Source: a virus
Length of the DNA: 51,999 nt
Strand: one strand, 5' to 3'
Virus record (IMG/VR): IMGVR_UViG_3300045742_000120
Span: 1 to 51,999 of that record
Below are positions 30,801 to 50,970 of the stretch, one piece after another. A program made the position numbers and the translations under genes. Every line of letters begins with the position of its first letter. Position 1 is the first letter of the stretch. Under the pieces are notes generated by a model. The model searched no databases, was not told the DNA's origin, and saw only the letters and a list, made by a program, of their open reading frames with translations.

Positions 30801-30875
30801 TGTTAACTATTAAGAGATACAAACAATAACAGGTCAAAAATATAAATAATAATCGAGCTACCGAAATAAAAATAA

Positions 30876-30924
30876 AGTTTTATTATAAAAGGTTTGGAAG
30901 TTTTATAATAAAACTATATATTTG
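30876..30924 (+). promoter_or_regulatory. Early promoter with double operator, copy 1
   Basis: A perfect 15-bp inverted repeat: AGTTTTATTATAAAA (30876-30890) and its complement at 30901-30915. TTTG (30893-30896), 20 bases, and TATATTTG (30917-30924) form an ideal Bacteroidota promoter. The -33 box lies between the two arms and the spacer holds the second arm. Each arm is itself nearly palindromic (TTTTATwATAAAA), so two repressor dimers could bind and block the promoter. The 42 bases at 30873-30914 recur exactly at 32903-32944. Confidence 0.8.
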
Positions 30925-30975
30925 TGGGGTACTTAGCAAGTAGGTGCAAATTGATACAAACAAAACCACAGCAAA

Positions 30976-32893: not shown

Positions 32894-32906
32894 AATTTAT
32901 TTTAAA

Positions 32907-32954
32907 GTTTTATTATAAAAGGTTTGGAAGTTTTATAATAAAACATTACCTTTA
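32907..32954 (+). promoter_or_regulatory. Early promoter with double operator, copy 2
   Basis: A perfect 14-bp inverted repeat: 32907-32920 and 32931-32944. TTTG (32923-32926), 20 bases, TACCTTTA (32947-32954, seven of eight bases of TAnnTTTG). The upstream 42 bases equal copy 1; only the -7 box differs, which would make this promoter weaker. Confidence 0.75.
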
Positions 32955-34551: not shown

Positions 34552-34560
34552 ACCTACAAA

Positions 34561-34608
34561 GTTTTATAACAAAATACTTGTTTTGTTTTATTATAAAACG
34601 TACCTTTA
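34561..34608 (+). promoter_or_regulatory. Early promoter with double operator, copy 3 (diverged)
   Basis: GTTTTATAACAAAA (34561-34574) and TTTTATTATAAAAC (34586-34599) form a 13-of-14 inverted repeat. TTG (34578-34580), 20 bases, and TACCTTTA (34601-34608) give the promoter. Layout equals copies 1 and 2: one arm upstream of the -33 box, one in the spacer. Confidence 0.7.
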
Positions 34609-34662
34609 TCAGAACTTTTAGGTCGTCATTTTTTCATTTGGAGATTATGATTTGTTATTGGA

Positions 34663-38369: not shown

Positions 38370-39200
38370 ATGGCAGAGAATACGAAAATAGAATGGACAG
38401 ATCATACGGTGAACTTGTGGTGGGGCTGCACTAAGGTAAATGCAGGTTGTGATAACTGTTATGCTGAACACTTAAGTGACACCCGGTATAAAAATGACCT
38501 GTGGGGCGAAGGGGTGCCCCGTAAAGCGATTAAAAGCGCACTGCCTACCCTTAGTAAGCTGCAAGCTAAAGCAGCGGACAGGGGTGTGGTAGAAACGGTT
38601 TTTATGAGTTCCATGTGTGATATCTTTGAAAAGTCAAAGCCACTGATAGACCATAAAGGGGTGAAGCTTGGTTTAACCACCGGCGACCTGAGGAACGAAT
38701 TGTTTTTTAACATTGGTGAAGGCTGCTACCCTAATTTAATATTCTTATTCCTTACCAAAAGGCCGAGCAATATTAATAAGATGGTTCCTGCAGTATGGTT
38801 ATTTAACCCCCCGGACAATGTGGTATTTGGTGCCTCAGTAGCAAACCAGCAGGCTGCAAATGATGTAGCCCGGCACTTTAAAGGGGTTACCGGTAAAAAG
38901 TTTTTAAGCGTGGAGCCGATGCTTGGAAAAATAGGCTTAAGCCCTTTTGTTGATGTGGCAATGGATTACAATAAAGCAATTACTAAAATGCTGGTCGATT
39001 GGGTTATTGTTGGCGGTGAAAGTGGCGACAACAAAAGGCCGTTCGACCCTAATTGGGCACGGATTATAAAAGGCTTTTGCAGTGTTACAAAGACCCCGTT
39101 TTTTATGAAGCAGTGGGATAAGGTGCAGCCAATACCTGATGATTTAATGATAAGGGAGTTTCCGGAATACCTTATTGATGCAAAGCCACCAAGTTTATGA
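38370..39200 (+). CDS. DUF5131 (phage Gp37/Gp68) family protein
   Basis: A 276-residue protein with the family's N-terminal signature: WTDHTVNLWWGCTKVNAGCD followed by NCYAE, giving Cys20, Cys27 and Cys30 (C-x6-C-x2-C), likely an Fe-S or radical-SAM-like site. Later parts fit too: LFLTKRPSNI (about 125), GASVANQ (about 150), SVEPMLG (about 176) and VIVGGESG (about 211). Widespread in phages; the reaction is not established. Confidence 0.85.
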   Translation: MAENTKIEWTDHTVNLWWGCTKVNAGCDNCYAEHLSDTRYKNDLWGEGVPRKAIKSALPTLSKLQAKAADRGVVETVFMSSMCDIFEKSKPLIDHKGVKLGLTTGDLRNELFFNIGEGCYPNLIFLFLTKRPSNINKMVPAVWLFNPPDNVVFGASVANQQAANDVARHFKGVTGKKFLSVEPMLGKIGLSPFVDVAMDYNKAITKMLVDWVIVGGESGDNKRPFDPNWARIIKGFCSVTKTPFFMKQWDKVQPIPDDLMIREFPEYLIDAKPPSL

Positions 39201-39418: not shown

Positions 39419-39439
39419 TCACTAATGTTTAATAATATT

Positions 39440-39469
39440 TTTTATTACAAAACCTTTTACGCATATTTG
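39440..39469 (+). promoter_or_regulatory. Early promoter with single operator, copy 4
   Basis: TTTTATTACAAAAC (39440-39453) matches 14 of 15 positions of the half-operator at 50923. CATATTTG (39462-39469) would be the -7 element. No TTTG at -33. The transcript would start near 39475, right before the structured leader. Confidence 0.5.
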
Positions 39470-39485
39470 TTGACAAGAAACATAG

Positions 39486-39575
39486 CTAGTTTTTAAAAGA
39501 GGTAGAGGGCTTTTAAAAACTAGGAGGTCTCCCGACCACTTTATAGCCCCGTTGCACCTCTACTGCTTCGGGGCT
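39486..39575 (+). ncRNA. Structured leader RNA with possible kissing loops
   Basis: Hairpin 1: CTAGTTTTTAAAAG (39486-39499) pairs perfectly with 39510-39523 over 14 bp; its ten-base loop contains GTAGAGG (39502-39508). Hairpin 2: AGCCCCG (39545-39551) pairs with CGGGGCT (39569-39575); its 17-base loop contains CCTCTAC (39557-39563), the exact complement of GTAGAGG. A small stem GGTC/GACC (39526-39537) lies between. It sits in the leader of the 39603 gene, just after a promoter. It could be a cis-regulator or a phage small RNA. Hairpin 2 is followed by TAAATTTTT, so it might end transcription. Confidence 0.55.
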
Positions 39576-39602
39576 TAAATTTTTAAACAAACTAACAAAG
39601 CA

Positions 39603-40403
39603 ATGGAAAACATCAAGTACACAACAGACGGAAAAAAGGTGGCCATCGTTGGCAAGCTCAACAACACCGAAACCATCGTGCAGGAAATTTATGTGAGTGA
39701 TGGTAATGAGATACCAGCCGGGGAAAACTTTATTGTTAAGACCCTGCTGGATAAGCCTGCAGTATCTTGGAAGGAAAAGAACCTGGCGGACCTAGAGGCT
39801 AGGTACCAAAGTGAAAAGGCTGATATTGAGCGCAGAACTAAAGGGCTAAAAGAAGCACTGAGGGCGCAAATACCTATCCTCCGGGGGAAGATAAAAAACC
39901 TGCAGGGCTTTTGCAGTAGTGCCACAGCTAAGGAATTAGAACGGCTGGAAAGCTTTTTAGCAGGGGAATATAAGTACATGGTTAAGCTGTGCTACCATTC
40001 CCAAATATTGGCTTTTGATGATAGTGTGGCTGCTGTTGAGCGATACGAAAGCGATACAGGCATAAAGCTGCTGAGCCTGTTTGGTAAAAGTGATGGGAGC
40101 CTAAGCTGGCGACTTAGCCAATACCGTGACGGTAGTGGCAGCAGTTCAGAATTCCACCCGGCTAAAACATTGGAGGAGGCTAAGGAATTGCTTAATAATT
40201 ACATCGATGCTAAAGAGTCTTATAATAGCTACGATGTGGCAGAAATTAGAAAGCACAATTTGTTTTTTGACTTTAATAAACTGGATGCTTTCCGTATTAA
40301 AAGTGAGGAGGGGATGCTAAAAAATATAGCCGACACTGAGGCAAAGCTGGCAAAGCAAAAGGCTGAGTTTATTGAGTTACAAAAAAAATACCCACAGTTA
40401 TGA
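39603..40403 (+). CDS. Coiled-coil protein behind the structured leader
   Basis: A 266-residue protein with a beta-rich N-terminus (1-45), a long coiled coil (about 55-115), a middle globular part with SWRLSQYRDGSGSSSEFHPA, and a second coiled coil at the end (235-266). No enzyme motif. Coupled to YopX by ATGA. Confidence 0.5.
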   Translation: MENIKYTTDGKKVAIVGKLNNTETIVQEIYVSDGNEIPAGENFIVKTLLDKPAVSWKEKNLADLEARYQSEKADIERRTKGLKEALRAQIPILRGKIKNLQGFCSSATAKELERLESFLAGEYKYMVKLCYHSQILAFDDSVAAVERYESDTGIKLLSLFGKSDGSLSWRLSQYRDGSGSSSEFHPAKTLEEAKELLNNYIDAKESYNSYDVAEIRKHNLFFDFNKLDAFRIKSEEGMLKNIADTEAKLAKQKAEFIELQKKYPQL

Positions 40404-40797: not shown

Positions 40798-41733
40798 ATG
40801 AGTAAGAAGCAGAACACGATTATTAAAGTAGCCAGGAAGCAAAAGGATTATTCTATACAGGATAACCACGTTTTCCGGAACACCGGCTTAAGCTGGAAGG
40901 CCAAAGGGCTGCAGGGCTACGCTATGCAGCTCCCTGAGGATTGGGAGCTTAACCTGGCAGACCTGGAAAACAGGGCTACCGATGGCCGTGACAGTGTGAG
41001 CAGTGGCGTGGGGGAGCTTGTTAGGGCTGGCTACTGGTATAAGGAGCAGCTAAGGGAGCAGGGCAAGATGGCCGGGGTGAGGTATTGGGTATTTGAGCGA
41101 CCAGAATACAACACCTTTTTAATAGAGGCCACCACACCAAAAGCAGAAGAAGAACCGGCACCCACCGTAAACGGGTTTTCCGTAAACGGTAAAACCGTAA
41201 ACGGAGAAACCGTAAACGGGAAACCCGTAACTACTAAAGTATTAACTCCTACTAATACATTAAAGGGTAGTAATAATTTAGCTGCTGTTAAAATTGAACC
41301 ACAAATTGACATACCTGCGGACGTTGATTTTTTAGACCACGGGCGCAAGTATTTGAAAAATAAGCTAGGTGATAAATACGGTAACCTTAAAGGGCCAGAA
41401 TATTGGCTTAAGTGGGAGCTTAGTGAATTTCACAGCTATTGGGAGGACTTTGGTTATAAGCACCCCAAAGGCAAAAAGAAAGGGGAGGTAATATCCTTTA
41501 TGCGTTCATTCTCCACCTGGCTGAGCAATTGGGTGACCAGCAACAAAGTGAGGCAGTTCTGCCCCACCGACCCAAAGCACCCCAATAATGACCCACACGC
41601 GCAGCAGTACGGTGTCACCCCCGGTGGTAATGATGCTAGAGGGCAGGTGTATGACAGGCCGGTAAACAAGGCACTGACAAAGCCAGCCAGCGCACAGGGC
41701 AATAATTTAGCTGACAAGTTTAAAGCCCACTAA
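40798..41733 (+). CDS. Replication initiator protein with internal origin
   Basis: A 311-residue protein with a winged-helix-like N-terminus: HVFRNTGLSWKAKGLQGYAM (24-43) and LNLADLENRATDGRDSVSSG (51-70). Then a five-residue repeat (TVNG[K/E] type, about 122-144) that is encoded by DNA iterons, a spacer, and a C-terminal domain (about 175-250, DHGRKYLKNKLGDKYGNLKG ...) likely to contact the helicase. It lies just before dnaB, like lambda O before P and other phage initiators. Leader: AAACAAACAAACAATG. Confidence 0.7.
   Translation: MSKKQNTIIKVARKQKDYSIQDNHVFRNTGLSWKAKGLQGYAMQLPEDWELNLADLENRATDGRDSVSSGVGELVRAGYWYKEQLREQGKMAGVRYWVFERPEYNTFLIEATTPKAEEEPAPTVNGFSVNGKTVNGETVNGKPVTTKVLTPTNTLKGSNNLAAVKIEPQIDIPADVDFLDHGRKYLKNKLGDKYGNLKGPEYWLKWELSEFHSYWEDFGYKHPKGKKKGEVISFMRSFSTWLSNWVTSNKVRQFCPTDPKHPNNDPHAQQYGVTPGGNDARGQVYDRPVNKALTKPASAQGNNLADKFKAH
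41165..41290 (+). other. Putative replication origin: 15-bp iterons and AT-rich flank
   Basis: CCGTAAACGG occurs at 41165, 41180, 41195 and 41210, and as CCGTAA at 41225: exactly 15 bases apart. Each core has inverted ends (CCGT..ACGG). An AT-rich stretch follows (41231-41290, with TACTAAAGTATTAA and TAGTAATAATTTA). Iterons plus AT-rich DNA within the initiator gene is the layout of lambda-type origins. Confidence 0.7.
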
Positions 41734-41736
41734 GCG

Positions 41737-43209
41737 ATGAGTAAAATTAAAGAAAGCAAACAGCGGGTGCGCGAAGCTTGGCAGCAGGTTAATGCTGAGC
41801 GTGAAGCTGCTGAAATAATTACATACGGCAAAGTCCAACCCCATGTTATACCTTTTGAGGAGGCTGTGCTTGGTGCCTGTTTACTGGAAAAAGATGCTGT
41901 GCAAAAGGTGTCCACCATCTTAAAGGAGGGGGATTTTTATAAGCAGGCTAATAACCTTATTTATAGGGCAATGATTGACCTTTACGAAAGGCGACAGCCT
42001 GTTGACCTGCTGACTGTGATGGCAGAGCTAAAAGGAACCGGGGAGCTTGATAACGTTGGTGGGGCTGTTTACCTGGCTGAGCTTAGCAACAAAGTGGCCA
42101 GTGCAGCAAATATAGAATACCATGCTGTAGTGCTACAGCAAAAGTCTTACCTCCGGCACGTCATTTCTAGCTGCACCAAGATGATGGCAATGGGTTATGA
42201 TGAAACCGTGGATATCAATGACCTTTCGGAATTTGTGGAGGGTAAGCTTTTTGAGTTAACGCAAAAGGTGACACCGGGGGTAATACAGCCCTTTAAAAAG
42301 CACCTTAGTAACAGGATGGATGAGCATATTGCTAACAGCAAACTAGATAGCTCGGCTGTGCTTGGTGTGCCTACTGACTTTGCTGACCTTGATGCTATTA
42401 CCGGGGGGCTGCAAAAAGGCGACCTTATCTGTATTGCTGCCAGGCCATCAATGGGGAAGACTGCTTTTGTTAAAAGCTTAATTTATAAGCAGGCCGTAAA
42501 GCTTAATAAAAGCGTAGCAGTTTTTTCGATGGAGGAAACGGCTGGGATGTTCTGTGATGGCCTTATTGCAATCGATGCCTGCCTTAATGGTAGGACGGTC
42601 AAGCAGGCTAACAAATGGACGGACAACAGCCAGCAAAGAATATTTGACACTGTTGACCGGATTGGTAGTGCTAAGATATTTTTAGATGATACTAATAACA
42701 TATCAATTAGCTACCTGGCCAGCAAGCTGAGGGAGCTTAAGGCCAAATATGATATTGATATTGCTTATATTGACTACCTGCAAATAATGGATATCGGTGA
42801 GGGTTTTAACCGGGATGTGGAAATAGGTAAGGTGACTAAGCGGCTGAAAGGGCTGGCTAAAGAATTGGACATACCTATTGTGTTCCTAAGCCAGCTAAGC
42901 CGGGCAGTGCTAAAGACAGCCGATAAGCGACCAGACCTTAGCCACCTGCGAGAATCCGGTAACATAGAGCAGGACTGTGACTTTATCATGTTCCTGCACA
43001 GGCCGTGGTATTATGGCATGAAAGAAAATGCAGACGGCGACAGCACTGAAAAGCTCGGTGAGGGAATAATTGCTAAGCACCGACATGGGGAGTTAGCCAC
43101 AGTAGATTTTAAGTTTATCAACTGGATGCCTGCCTATTATGATGTCGATGAGGAGATTTGTGACCAGCCACCGGTACAAGGTGCAGACGGGGAAGATTTA
43201 CCATTTTAA
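41737..43209 (+). CDS. dnaB: Replicative DNA helicase, DnaB family
   Basis: A 490-residue protein with an N-terminal DnaB domain (about 35-140, EEAVLGACLLEKDAVQKV), a linker, and the RecA-like core: Walker A ARPSMGKT (235-242, Lys241), motif FSMEET (263-268), Walker B DIAYIDYLQI (341-350, Asp346), and SQLSR (385-389). It unwinds DNA at the fork as a hexamer. Length is usual for the family. Located three bases after the initiator, which probably loads it at the iterons. Confidence 0.95.
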   Translation: MSKIKESKQRVREAWQQVNAEREAAEIITYGKVQPHVIPFEEAVLGACLLEKDAVQKVSTILKEGDFYKQANNLIYRAMIDLYERRQPVDLLTVMAELKGTGELDNVGGAVYLAELSNKVASAANIEYHAVVLQQKSYLRHVISSCTKMMAMGYDETVDINDLSEFVEGKLFELTQKVTPGVIQPFKKHLSNRMDEHIANSKLDSSAVLGVPTDFADLDAITGGLQKGDLICIAARPSMGKTAFVKSLIYKQAVKLNKSVAVFSMEETAGMFCDGLIAIDACLNGRTVKQANKWTDNSQQRIFDTVDRIGSAKIFLDDTNNISISYLASKLRELKAKYDIDIAYIDYLQIMDIGEGFNRDVEIGKVTKRLKGLAKELDIPIVFLSQLSRAVLKTADKRPDLSHLRESGNIEQDCDFIMFLHRPWYYGMKENADGDSTEKLGEGIIAKHRHGELATVDFKFINWMPAYYDVDEEICDQPPVQGADGEDLPF

Positions 43210-49399: not shown

Positions 49400-49541
49400 T
49401 TTAATTAAAACTAAAGACTGCAGCAGCCTGCTAAAAGAAACCCCCGTGGCGGGTGATTATAGTGTACTTATAAATGAGGACACCCTATTTATAAAAGGCG
49501 GTGACTGTTGGCCTTTACATAAATATATCAAAGCTTTTTAA
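49386..49541 (+). CDS. 51-residue protein between ParB-like and dioxygenase genes
   Basis: ATG 49386 overlaps the previous gene by 14 bases; the ORF ends at TAA 49541, seven bases before the dioxygenase ATG. The product starts MKTFNLIKTKDCSSLL and ends KGGDCWPLHKYIKAF; two Cys. Perfect fit into the gap and coding-like composition support it. Function unknown, possibly a partner of the dioxygenase. Confidence 0.6.
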   Translation: MKTFNLIKTKDCSSLLKETPVAGDYSVLINEDTLFIKGGDCWPLHKYIKAF

Positions 49542-49548
49542 CCCGGAA

Positions 49549-50229
49549 ATGCTTAGGGGGGTTGTACGTACTACAAAGACAGTGAAAACCTACAGGACAA
49601 ACGCTTTACCAACAGAATCAAGTGTTTTCGGGGCACTGCCCCGGAACGCAATACGGAATGATTACTGCAGGTTTGCTGCACAGACGCAAACGGAAAAACA
49701 GAATGCAAGGATATTATTTTCCTTCCTGGATGTGCTAAATGGTATTTATGAAAAGCACCTGCCAGGCCATTACAAAAGGGATAAAGACCTTGTCGCTGAG
49801 CAGGTGATTGGTGATTTTATGCTAAAAGAAAGGCAGCCTTATTCTACTGTAAATGTAAATGTAAACCATGCAATAAAATACCACCGGGATAGCGGAAACT
49901 TTAAAGGGAATATGAGCAATGTCTTGGTCCTTAAAGAAGGGTTAAAAGGTGGTGAGCTAGTGTTCCCGGAATATGGCTTTGCACTATCTCAAAACGATTG
50001 CTGGCTTTCCATATTTGACGGGCAGGGGGAAATACATGGTGTGATGCCAATATTTGACAACGGCACGCGCAGAAAGCCATACCGGGCCAGCATCGTTTAC
50101 TATACACTCGAACAGTTAAAACACTGTTACCCTTATAAGCAGGAAATCGAAAGGCTCAAAGTTGTTTCAACAGAAAGGGCAGAAAAAAGGGCTGCAGGTA
50201 TTAACCCGTCACAACAGCTTAAAAAATAA
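49549..50229 (+). CDS. Fe(II)/2-oxoglutarate dioxygenase, TET/JBP-like
   Basis: A 226-residue protein. I choose ATG 49549 over GTG 49501, which lies inside the 51-residue gene. The double-stranded beta-helix ligands are visible: KYHRDSGN (His112, Asp114), GGELVFPEYGFAL (about 140-152), EIHGVMP (His163), and RASIVYY with Arg179 to bind 2-oxoglutarate. The short H-x-D-x-G-N and the FPEYG motif point to TET/JBP, which hydroxylate the methyl of thymine or 5-methylcytosine in DNA. Phage members start DNA hypermodification. A prolyl-hydroxylase-type enzyme is the main alternative. Confidence 0.75.
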   Translation: MLRGVVRTTKTVKTYRTNALPTESSVFGALPRNAIRNDYCRFAAQTQTEKQNARILFSFLDVLNGIYEKHLPGHYKRDKDLVAEQVIGDFMLKERQPYSTVNVNVNHAIKYHRDSGNFKGNMSNVLVLKEGLKGGELVFPEYGFALSQNDCWLSIFDGQGEIHGVMPIFDNGTRRKPYRASIVYYTLEQLKHCYPYKQEIERLKVVSTERAEKRAAGINPSQQLKK

Positions 50230-50916: not shown

Positions 50917-50922
50917 ATTAAA

Positions 50923-50970
50923 GTTTTATTACAAAACATTAGGAACCCTAAACTAAAGTGTTTATATTTG
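50923..50970 (+). promoter_or_regulatory. Early promoter with single operator, copy 5
   Basis: GTTTTATTACAAAAC (50923-50937) is one half-operator. TATATTTG (50963-50970) is a perfect -7 element; TTAG (50939-50942) sits 20 bases upstream in place of TTTG. A small inverted repeat TTAGG/CCTAA (50939-50951) lies between. Leader: ACAAACAATAACAAAAC before the start at 51007. Confidence 0.6.

Follow-up and report, generated by a model that had tools for sequence, protein, structure and literature searches.

A phage leader with two kissing hairpins, possibly an attenuator RNA of a new sort, ahead of a Bacteroidota phage replication operon

Introduction

Loop-loop complementarity of about 7 nt controls replication in the plasmid rep attenuators (pT181, pIP501) and in the ColE1-type kissing RNAs, and kissing between two leader hairpins is found in the purine and lysine riboswitches. 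Among phages, the c4 RNA of P1/P7 is grouped with leader attenuation of the P4 type. Very few structured regulatory RNAs have, to our knowledge, been described from phages that infect Bacteroidota. In P4, transcription of the replication genes is terminated when the CI RNA base-pairs with two sites in its own leader, seqA and seqC (PMC4825925). The put RNAs of HK022, which are about 70 nt long and comprise two stem-loops, act independently of any protein (PMC9378689).

Here we describe a leader in a stretch of viral DNA (hereafter the window: the entire IMG/VR record IMGVR_UViG_3300045742_000120, 51,999 bases) that resembles each of these systems in part. As in P4, RNA-RNA pairing in a phage leader before replication genes governs premature termination, putatively so in the present case. 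In P4, however, a processed antisense RNA pairs with two separate leader sites, whereas here the partners are the loops of neighboring hairpins, one of which is terminator-like; no sequence relation was found between the P4 CI RNA and the leaders reported here. Like the put RNAs, these leaders have two hairpins just 3' of a phage early promoter and can occur twice per genome. By its description, put is set apart as an antiterminator that binds RNA polymerase, whereas here the loops drift, pair with each other, and are accompanied by a T-run. The attenuators of pT181 and pIP501 likewise lie before rep and use loop complementarity of about 7 nt, but they and the ColE1-type systems need a separate countertranscript; here, the pairing is inside one RNA. 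The purine and lysine riboswitches share the kissing within a leader, but the present leaders have no conserved ligand core, no closed multi-way junction, and no Rfam match.

Results

Wherever a phage matching the window's Gp3-like/recombination-directionality gene had a named host, that host belonged to Bacteroidota. The window also has Bacteroidota-type promoters, with TTTG/TAnnTTTG boxes (e.g., TTTG-N20-TATATTTG at 30893). Judged by its sequence, the virus is a Bacteroidota phage. The element under study, which like its promoter and the operon genes with coordinates is on the plus strand, heads a replication operon. The first gene of this operon (39603..40403), whose start codon is 18 nt past the leader's T-run, encodes a 266-aa protein of PHROG 16901; its function is not known, and it has relatives in phi80, phiPSA1 and PdC23. 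The operon also encodes a YopX-like protein, a replication initiation protein of the phrog_4707 type (40798..41733), and a DnaB-like replicative helicase (41737..43209). Elsewhere in the window, the gene at 49501-50229 carries a Tet/JBP-type 2-oxoglutarate oxygenase domain (PF12851) and may encode a DNA base modification enzyme; a DUF5131 (Gp37/Gp68-like) protein, which widely differing phages share, those of mycobacteria and cyanobacteria among them, is encoded at 38370-39200.

The preliminary description of this DNA had reported two neighboring hairpins with complementary loops and a small stem between them, and direct reading of the sequence confirms each of these parts. The first hairpin, H1 (39486..39523), consists of 14 bp, formed by perfect pairing of CTAGTTTTTAAAAG (39486-39499) with CTTTTAAAAACTAG (39510-39523), and a 10-nt loop, AGGTAGAGGG, that contains the first kissing strand, GTAGAGG (39502..39508). 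The linker harbors a mini-hairpin, GGTC-TCCC-GACC (39526..39537; GGTC at 39526-39529, GACC at 39534-39537). The second hairpin, H2 (39540..39579), has a terminator-like stem (TTTA.AGCCCCG / CGGGGCTTAAA) and a 17-nt loop, TTGCACCTCTACTGCTT, in which the second kissing strand, CCTCTAC, is located (39557..39563). The GC-rich, 7-bp stem that had been noted earlier (AGCCCCG, 39545-39551; CGGGGCT, 39569-39575) is lengthened by TTTA (39540-39543) and TAAA (39576-39579), and a T-run, TTTTT (39580..39584), follows directly 3' of it. The window thus holds a hairpin, a linker, a second hairpin with a loop complementary to the first over at least 7 nt, and a T-run, with Rep and DnaB encoded downstream.

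GTAGAGG and CCTCTAC lie in a complementarity of eight pairs, including one G-U, and the computed energy of the duplex in isolation is -12.5 kcal/mol. The local fold has a z of -3.3 (1/200 shuffles was equally good), and no other adjacent hairpin pair of the window comes near H1/H2 in the strength of its loop match. One loop is purine-rich and the other pyrimidine-rich; shuffling both gave a match of at least 7 in 1.3% of trials (2519/200000), and the window's loop match taken alone is therefore only suggestive. GTAGAGG occurs three times in all in this phage, which equals the chance expectation for a loop target elsewhere, and no copies of the CTAGTTTTTAAAAG arm as a repeated operator were present beyond chance.

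The leader's probable promoter is a Bacteroidota-type TTTT-N20-CATATTTG (39438..39469; -33/-7), whose spacer includes an operator-like TTTTATTACAAAAC (39440-39453). Its box CATATTTG (39462) is one mismatch from TAnnTTTG; the prediction is based on the 20-nt spacing and on palindromes like those at the phage's other promoters. A rival box, TTTG-N17-TAGTTTTT (39466/39487), matches the consensus at 9/10 positions. A transcript from the 39438 box would hold all of H1, whereas one from the rival would start within it. In related leaders, the TAnnTTTG box is located about 10-15 nt 5' of H1, which would favor the 39438 box. The early (sigma-70) promoter proposed previously was not borne out: the TTGACA at 39470 is without a good -10 and is absent from the output of a sigma-70 scan. 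Tandem palindromic operator-like GTTTTATNATAAAAC sites, probably the operators of the phage's repressor, were observed around Bacteroidota-type promoters at 30873-30925, 32903-32950, 34557-34610, and 50920-50970.

Searches for direct relatives of the window RNA were negative. Exact DNA patterns of the loops had only chance matches in IMG/VR, within coding regions; a covariance model built from this RNA alone recovered no relative; and neither a DnaB query nor a single-sequence Gp3-like query found anything. The preliminary description had placed the RNA before the 266-aa gene, but a link between the two is not supported: this gene occurs widely without the RNA, and none of the leaders of its relatives contained it. 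At the gathering threshold, none of 4227 Rfam families matched the window, in keeping with the earlier view that the layout belongs to no named class, and eight kin loci matched only tRNAs; a permissive threshold gave only chance-level matches, such as a weak one to PyrG-leader. Searches of an open-access library turned up no description of such an RNA, although absence there is weak evidence.

The anatomy of the window's leader was nevertheless encountered in about 33 further leaders from other phages, mostly of Bacteroidota. These share a promoter box, a hairpin, a linker, a terminator-like hairpin with a loop complementary to that of the first hairpin, a T-run, and a start codon that heads an operon, often a replication operon. 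The T-run follows H2 in all of them, cultured phages included. The carriers in culture are the Parabacteroides phages PD482P1, PD691P3, PD691P4, and PD691P6, together with Croceibacter phage P2559S, which has the type A form described below (AGTA/GAA) with a 6-nt match. Replication-gene leaders follow the same plan with different words: L202 (GTGGAAG/CTTCCAC), L215 (GAGGGAA/TTCCCTC), L185 (GTAGAAGC/GCTTCTAC), L193, L164, and L201. Judged from translated starts, the genes 3' of the RNA vary (PAPS-reductase-like, HNH nuclease, replication initiators, methyltransferase); the RNA therefore marks operon heads and not one gene. Four genomes (L129, L130, L134, L215) have two copies each, the words of which are mutually non-complementary (no more than 4 nt). 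The sigma-70 promoter of L202, together with its Shine-Dalgarno-like site, suggests that leaders on this plan exist outside of Bacteroidota too.

Some further features of individual leaders were noted in passing. In L164:12430-12630 (and L162), from a phage that is not obviously of Bacteroidota, a strong sigma-70-like promoter is accompanied by several hairpins and a terminator, with a loop/bulge complementarity directly 5' of the Shine-Dalgarno site of a small gene and a rep-like gene. The replication leader L226:3560-3740 has a 6-nt loop match and a separate 8-nt complementarity, GAAGAAAC/GTTTCTTC, between linker and terminator hairpin.

The loop matches exceed expectation in several comparisons. 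Among replication leaders with a terminator, an H1 that kisses over at least 7 nt was present in 7/22, compared to 0.5 expected when terminators and hairpins were mixed between leaders; five of the seven, including the window, were left after removal of AT-rich cases. Chance probably accounts for the AT-rich kissing matches of L183, L194, and L246. There were eight matches of at least 7 among 1571 terminator-like hairpins (some of them one place counted on both strands) vs. 1.6 expected, with a maximum of six in 40 re-deals. Scanning 5.5 Mb (strand-bases) for a promoter box, H1, a kissing hairpin, and a T-run yielded about 25 cases, of which almost all head operons in phages of Bacteroidota. 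For distinct loop pairs, 28/32 own pairs matched over at least 7 nt, as opposed to 8/992 cross pairs; because many relatives had been selected by complementarity, own-pair counts of this kind are biased upwards, and the clean tests are those based on position and on models.

Two homologous subtypes, A and B, lie directly 3' of the Gp3-like gene in many Bacteroidota phages and also occur at other operon heads. Type A is characterized by a conserved terminator stem, GAAATTTAATGCCCTGTAAAGTA ... GAAATACGGGGCG, with an AGUA/GAA internal loop and the kissing hairpin as its cap. This internal loop, which is conserved in L128, L129, L134, L137, L140, L143, L149, L158, L122, L119, and L100, resembles a sarcin-ricin/bulged-G module. 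Type B comprises H1, usually a mini-hairpin, and then the kissing terminator, the same order as in the window; the window's mini-hairpin is the counterpart of the small middle hairpin found in L215 and in most type-B leaders. In the type B alignment, the kissing helix is 100% paired, and 4/7 of its pairs have changed on both sides: column 13/76, for example, is occupied by C-G, U-A, and G-C. Representative words are CCACTAC/GTAGTGG (L130), CCACGAC/GTCGTGG (L131), and CCACCAC/GTGGTGG (L201). Covariation was also present in H1 and in the terminator stem of the homologous leaders.

For the position-based test, leaders were chosen by a promoter box that immediately follows the stop codon of the Gp3-like gene, with complementarity not required. 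Ten of the 13 distinct H1 loops matched their own H2 over at least 6 nt, compared to 4/156 cross pairs. As for the remaining three, the script parsed L126 wrongly, a 7-nt match being present on reading, and L153 and L154 are without such an RNA. At six more position-selected loci, no H1 was found at the script's thresholds; on reading, two to three of them (L100, L142, L144) show type A with a shorter H1. In the model-based test, the type A model (R2) contained no kissing information, and the type B model (R3) had two columns in the H2 loop region paired, the two loops not being paired together. All four matches that had not been used in building these models displayed kissing: L134:13342 (7), L119:5081 (6), L129:4570 (7), and the weak L159:11666 (E 0.0016; 7 with one G-U).

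The window itself was matched by neither R2 nor R3, and the AGUA ... GAA internal loop is absent at 39540-39579; the window is therefore likened to these leaders and not assigned to type A or B. Its H1 (14 bp) is longer and its H2 loop (17 nt) larger than in both types. Given that a direct homologue was also lacking, what the window has in common with the subtypes is an architecture without proven common descent. The covariation for which the preliminary description proposed a search was found in one respect, as compensatory loop changes in the homologous subtypes of other phages, but a direct homologue of the window RNA was not.

Discussion

We propose that the replication operon of this phage has the window element as its 5' leader and that the element is a conditional terminator (attenuator) working in cis, a reading that we give an even chance. 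The sequence, its structure potential, the recurrence at the same place in many phages, and the covariation of the loops in relatives are direct observations. We infer that the leader is transcribed, that it is terminated, and that kissing controls this termination. Transcription would start about 10-20 nt 5' of H1, which would fold and be followed by the linker with its mini-hairpin; H2, resembling an intrinsic terminator, would then pair by its loop with that of H1. This kissing helix would set whether H2 forms a terminator, or how rapidly it does so relative to the polymerase. Most early transcripts would end near 39584 as an RNA of about 110 nt, which may be a small RNA as well, and read-through would yield the operon mRNA. 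A hairpin with a T-run in the leader, immediately 5' of the first start codon, would allow many transcripts to stop at this point, and the conservation of the loop-loop helix argues that the folding of H1 with the terminator matters. Attenuation in cis would be the simplest mechanism. Because the T-run of five follows the A-U base of the stem, termination may be weak, and because kissing is compatible with the terminator stem, the switching step stays a proposal.

A different role for the same transcript is possible, if on the unlikely side: the terminated leader of about 110 nt could accumulate, in a prophage or early in infection, as a trans-acting immunity or self-regulatory small RNA like the P4 CI RNA. 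Its loops would base-pair with a leader still being transcribed from another copy and force termination before the replication genes, and the loop words would be specificities of immunity or incompatibility. The location before a replication operon, the discrete terminated RNA that is predicted, the divergence of words among phages, and their non-complementarity between the two copies of a genome would suit such a role, for which P4 provides a precedent in the termination of replication genes (PMC4825925). However, the two partners share one RNA, and kissing within the molecule should therefore prevail; the diversity of words is explained equally well by neutral compensatory drift. We are similarly tentative, and inclined to doubt, about a combined reading in which the words are a self-recognition code: the leader in cis and the released small RNA in trans would together decide termination of their own operon, and each operon and each phage would have a specificity of its own that drifts freely (immunity based on RNA, or sensing of copy number).

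Three further accounts appear less probable. It is doubtful that RNA polymerase, bound by the folded leader, becomes resistant to downstream terminators, as with put. The elements do lie just past promoters at operon heads, with at most two copies per genome, like putL and putR of HK022, and the put RNAs also have two stem-loops in about 70 nt; but here a T-run follows the second hairpin, the loop sequences are not conserved, and kissing goes unmentioned in the put paper (PMC9378689). Slightly more doubtful is the idea that H1 is a DNA operator over the rival box at 39466/39487, with the RNA starting inside H1 and the loops matching by chance. The good fit of that box to the consensus and the frequency of palindromic operators in this phage speak for it; against it, CTAGTTTTTAAAAG has no extra copies beyond chance, and the loop match, mini-hairpin, and terminator recur elsewhere as RNA features. 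That H2 is a plain intrinsic terminator beside an unrelated hairpin, with kissing of no function, is very improbable: the window match alone, at about 1% by chance, would leave room for it, but the enrichment and covariation in other phages oppose it.

The interpretation given in the preliminary description is thus partly supported. Its kissing hairpins, which may form an attenuation switch or a small RNA, gain from the recurrent architecture and the compensatory loop changes in other phages. The architecture is apparently a plan for phage leader RNAs that has so far not been described, and it possibly represents a new class, a leader or attenuator RNA of a new sort. On sequence evidence, loops that match and yet vary across phages point to an RNA switch or small RNA of phages that has not been described before. 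Drifting yet nearly always complementary, and carried by Parabacteroides and Croceibacter phages in culture, such loops would constitute a compact RNA switch that controls replication; if the words act in trans, they would constitute an RNA-coded immunity system.
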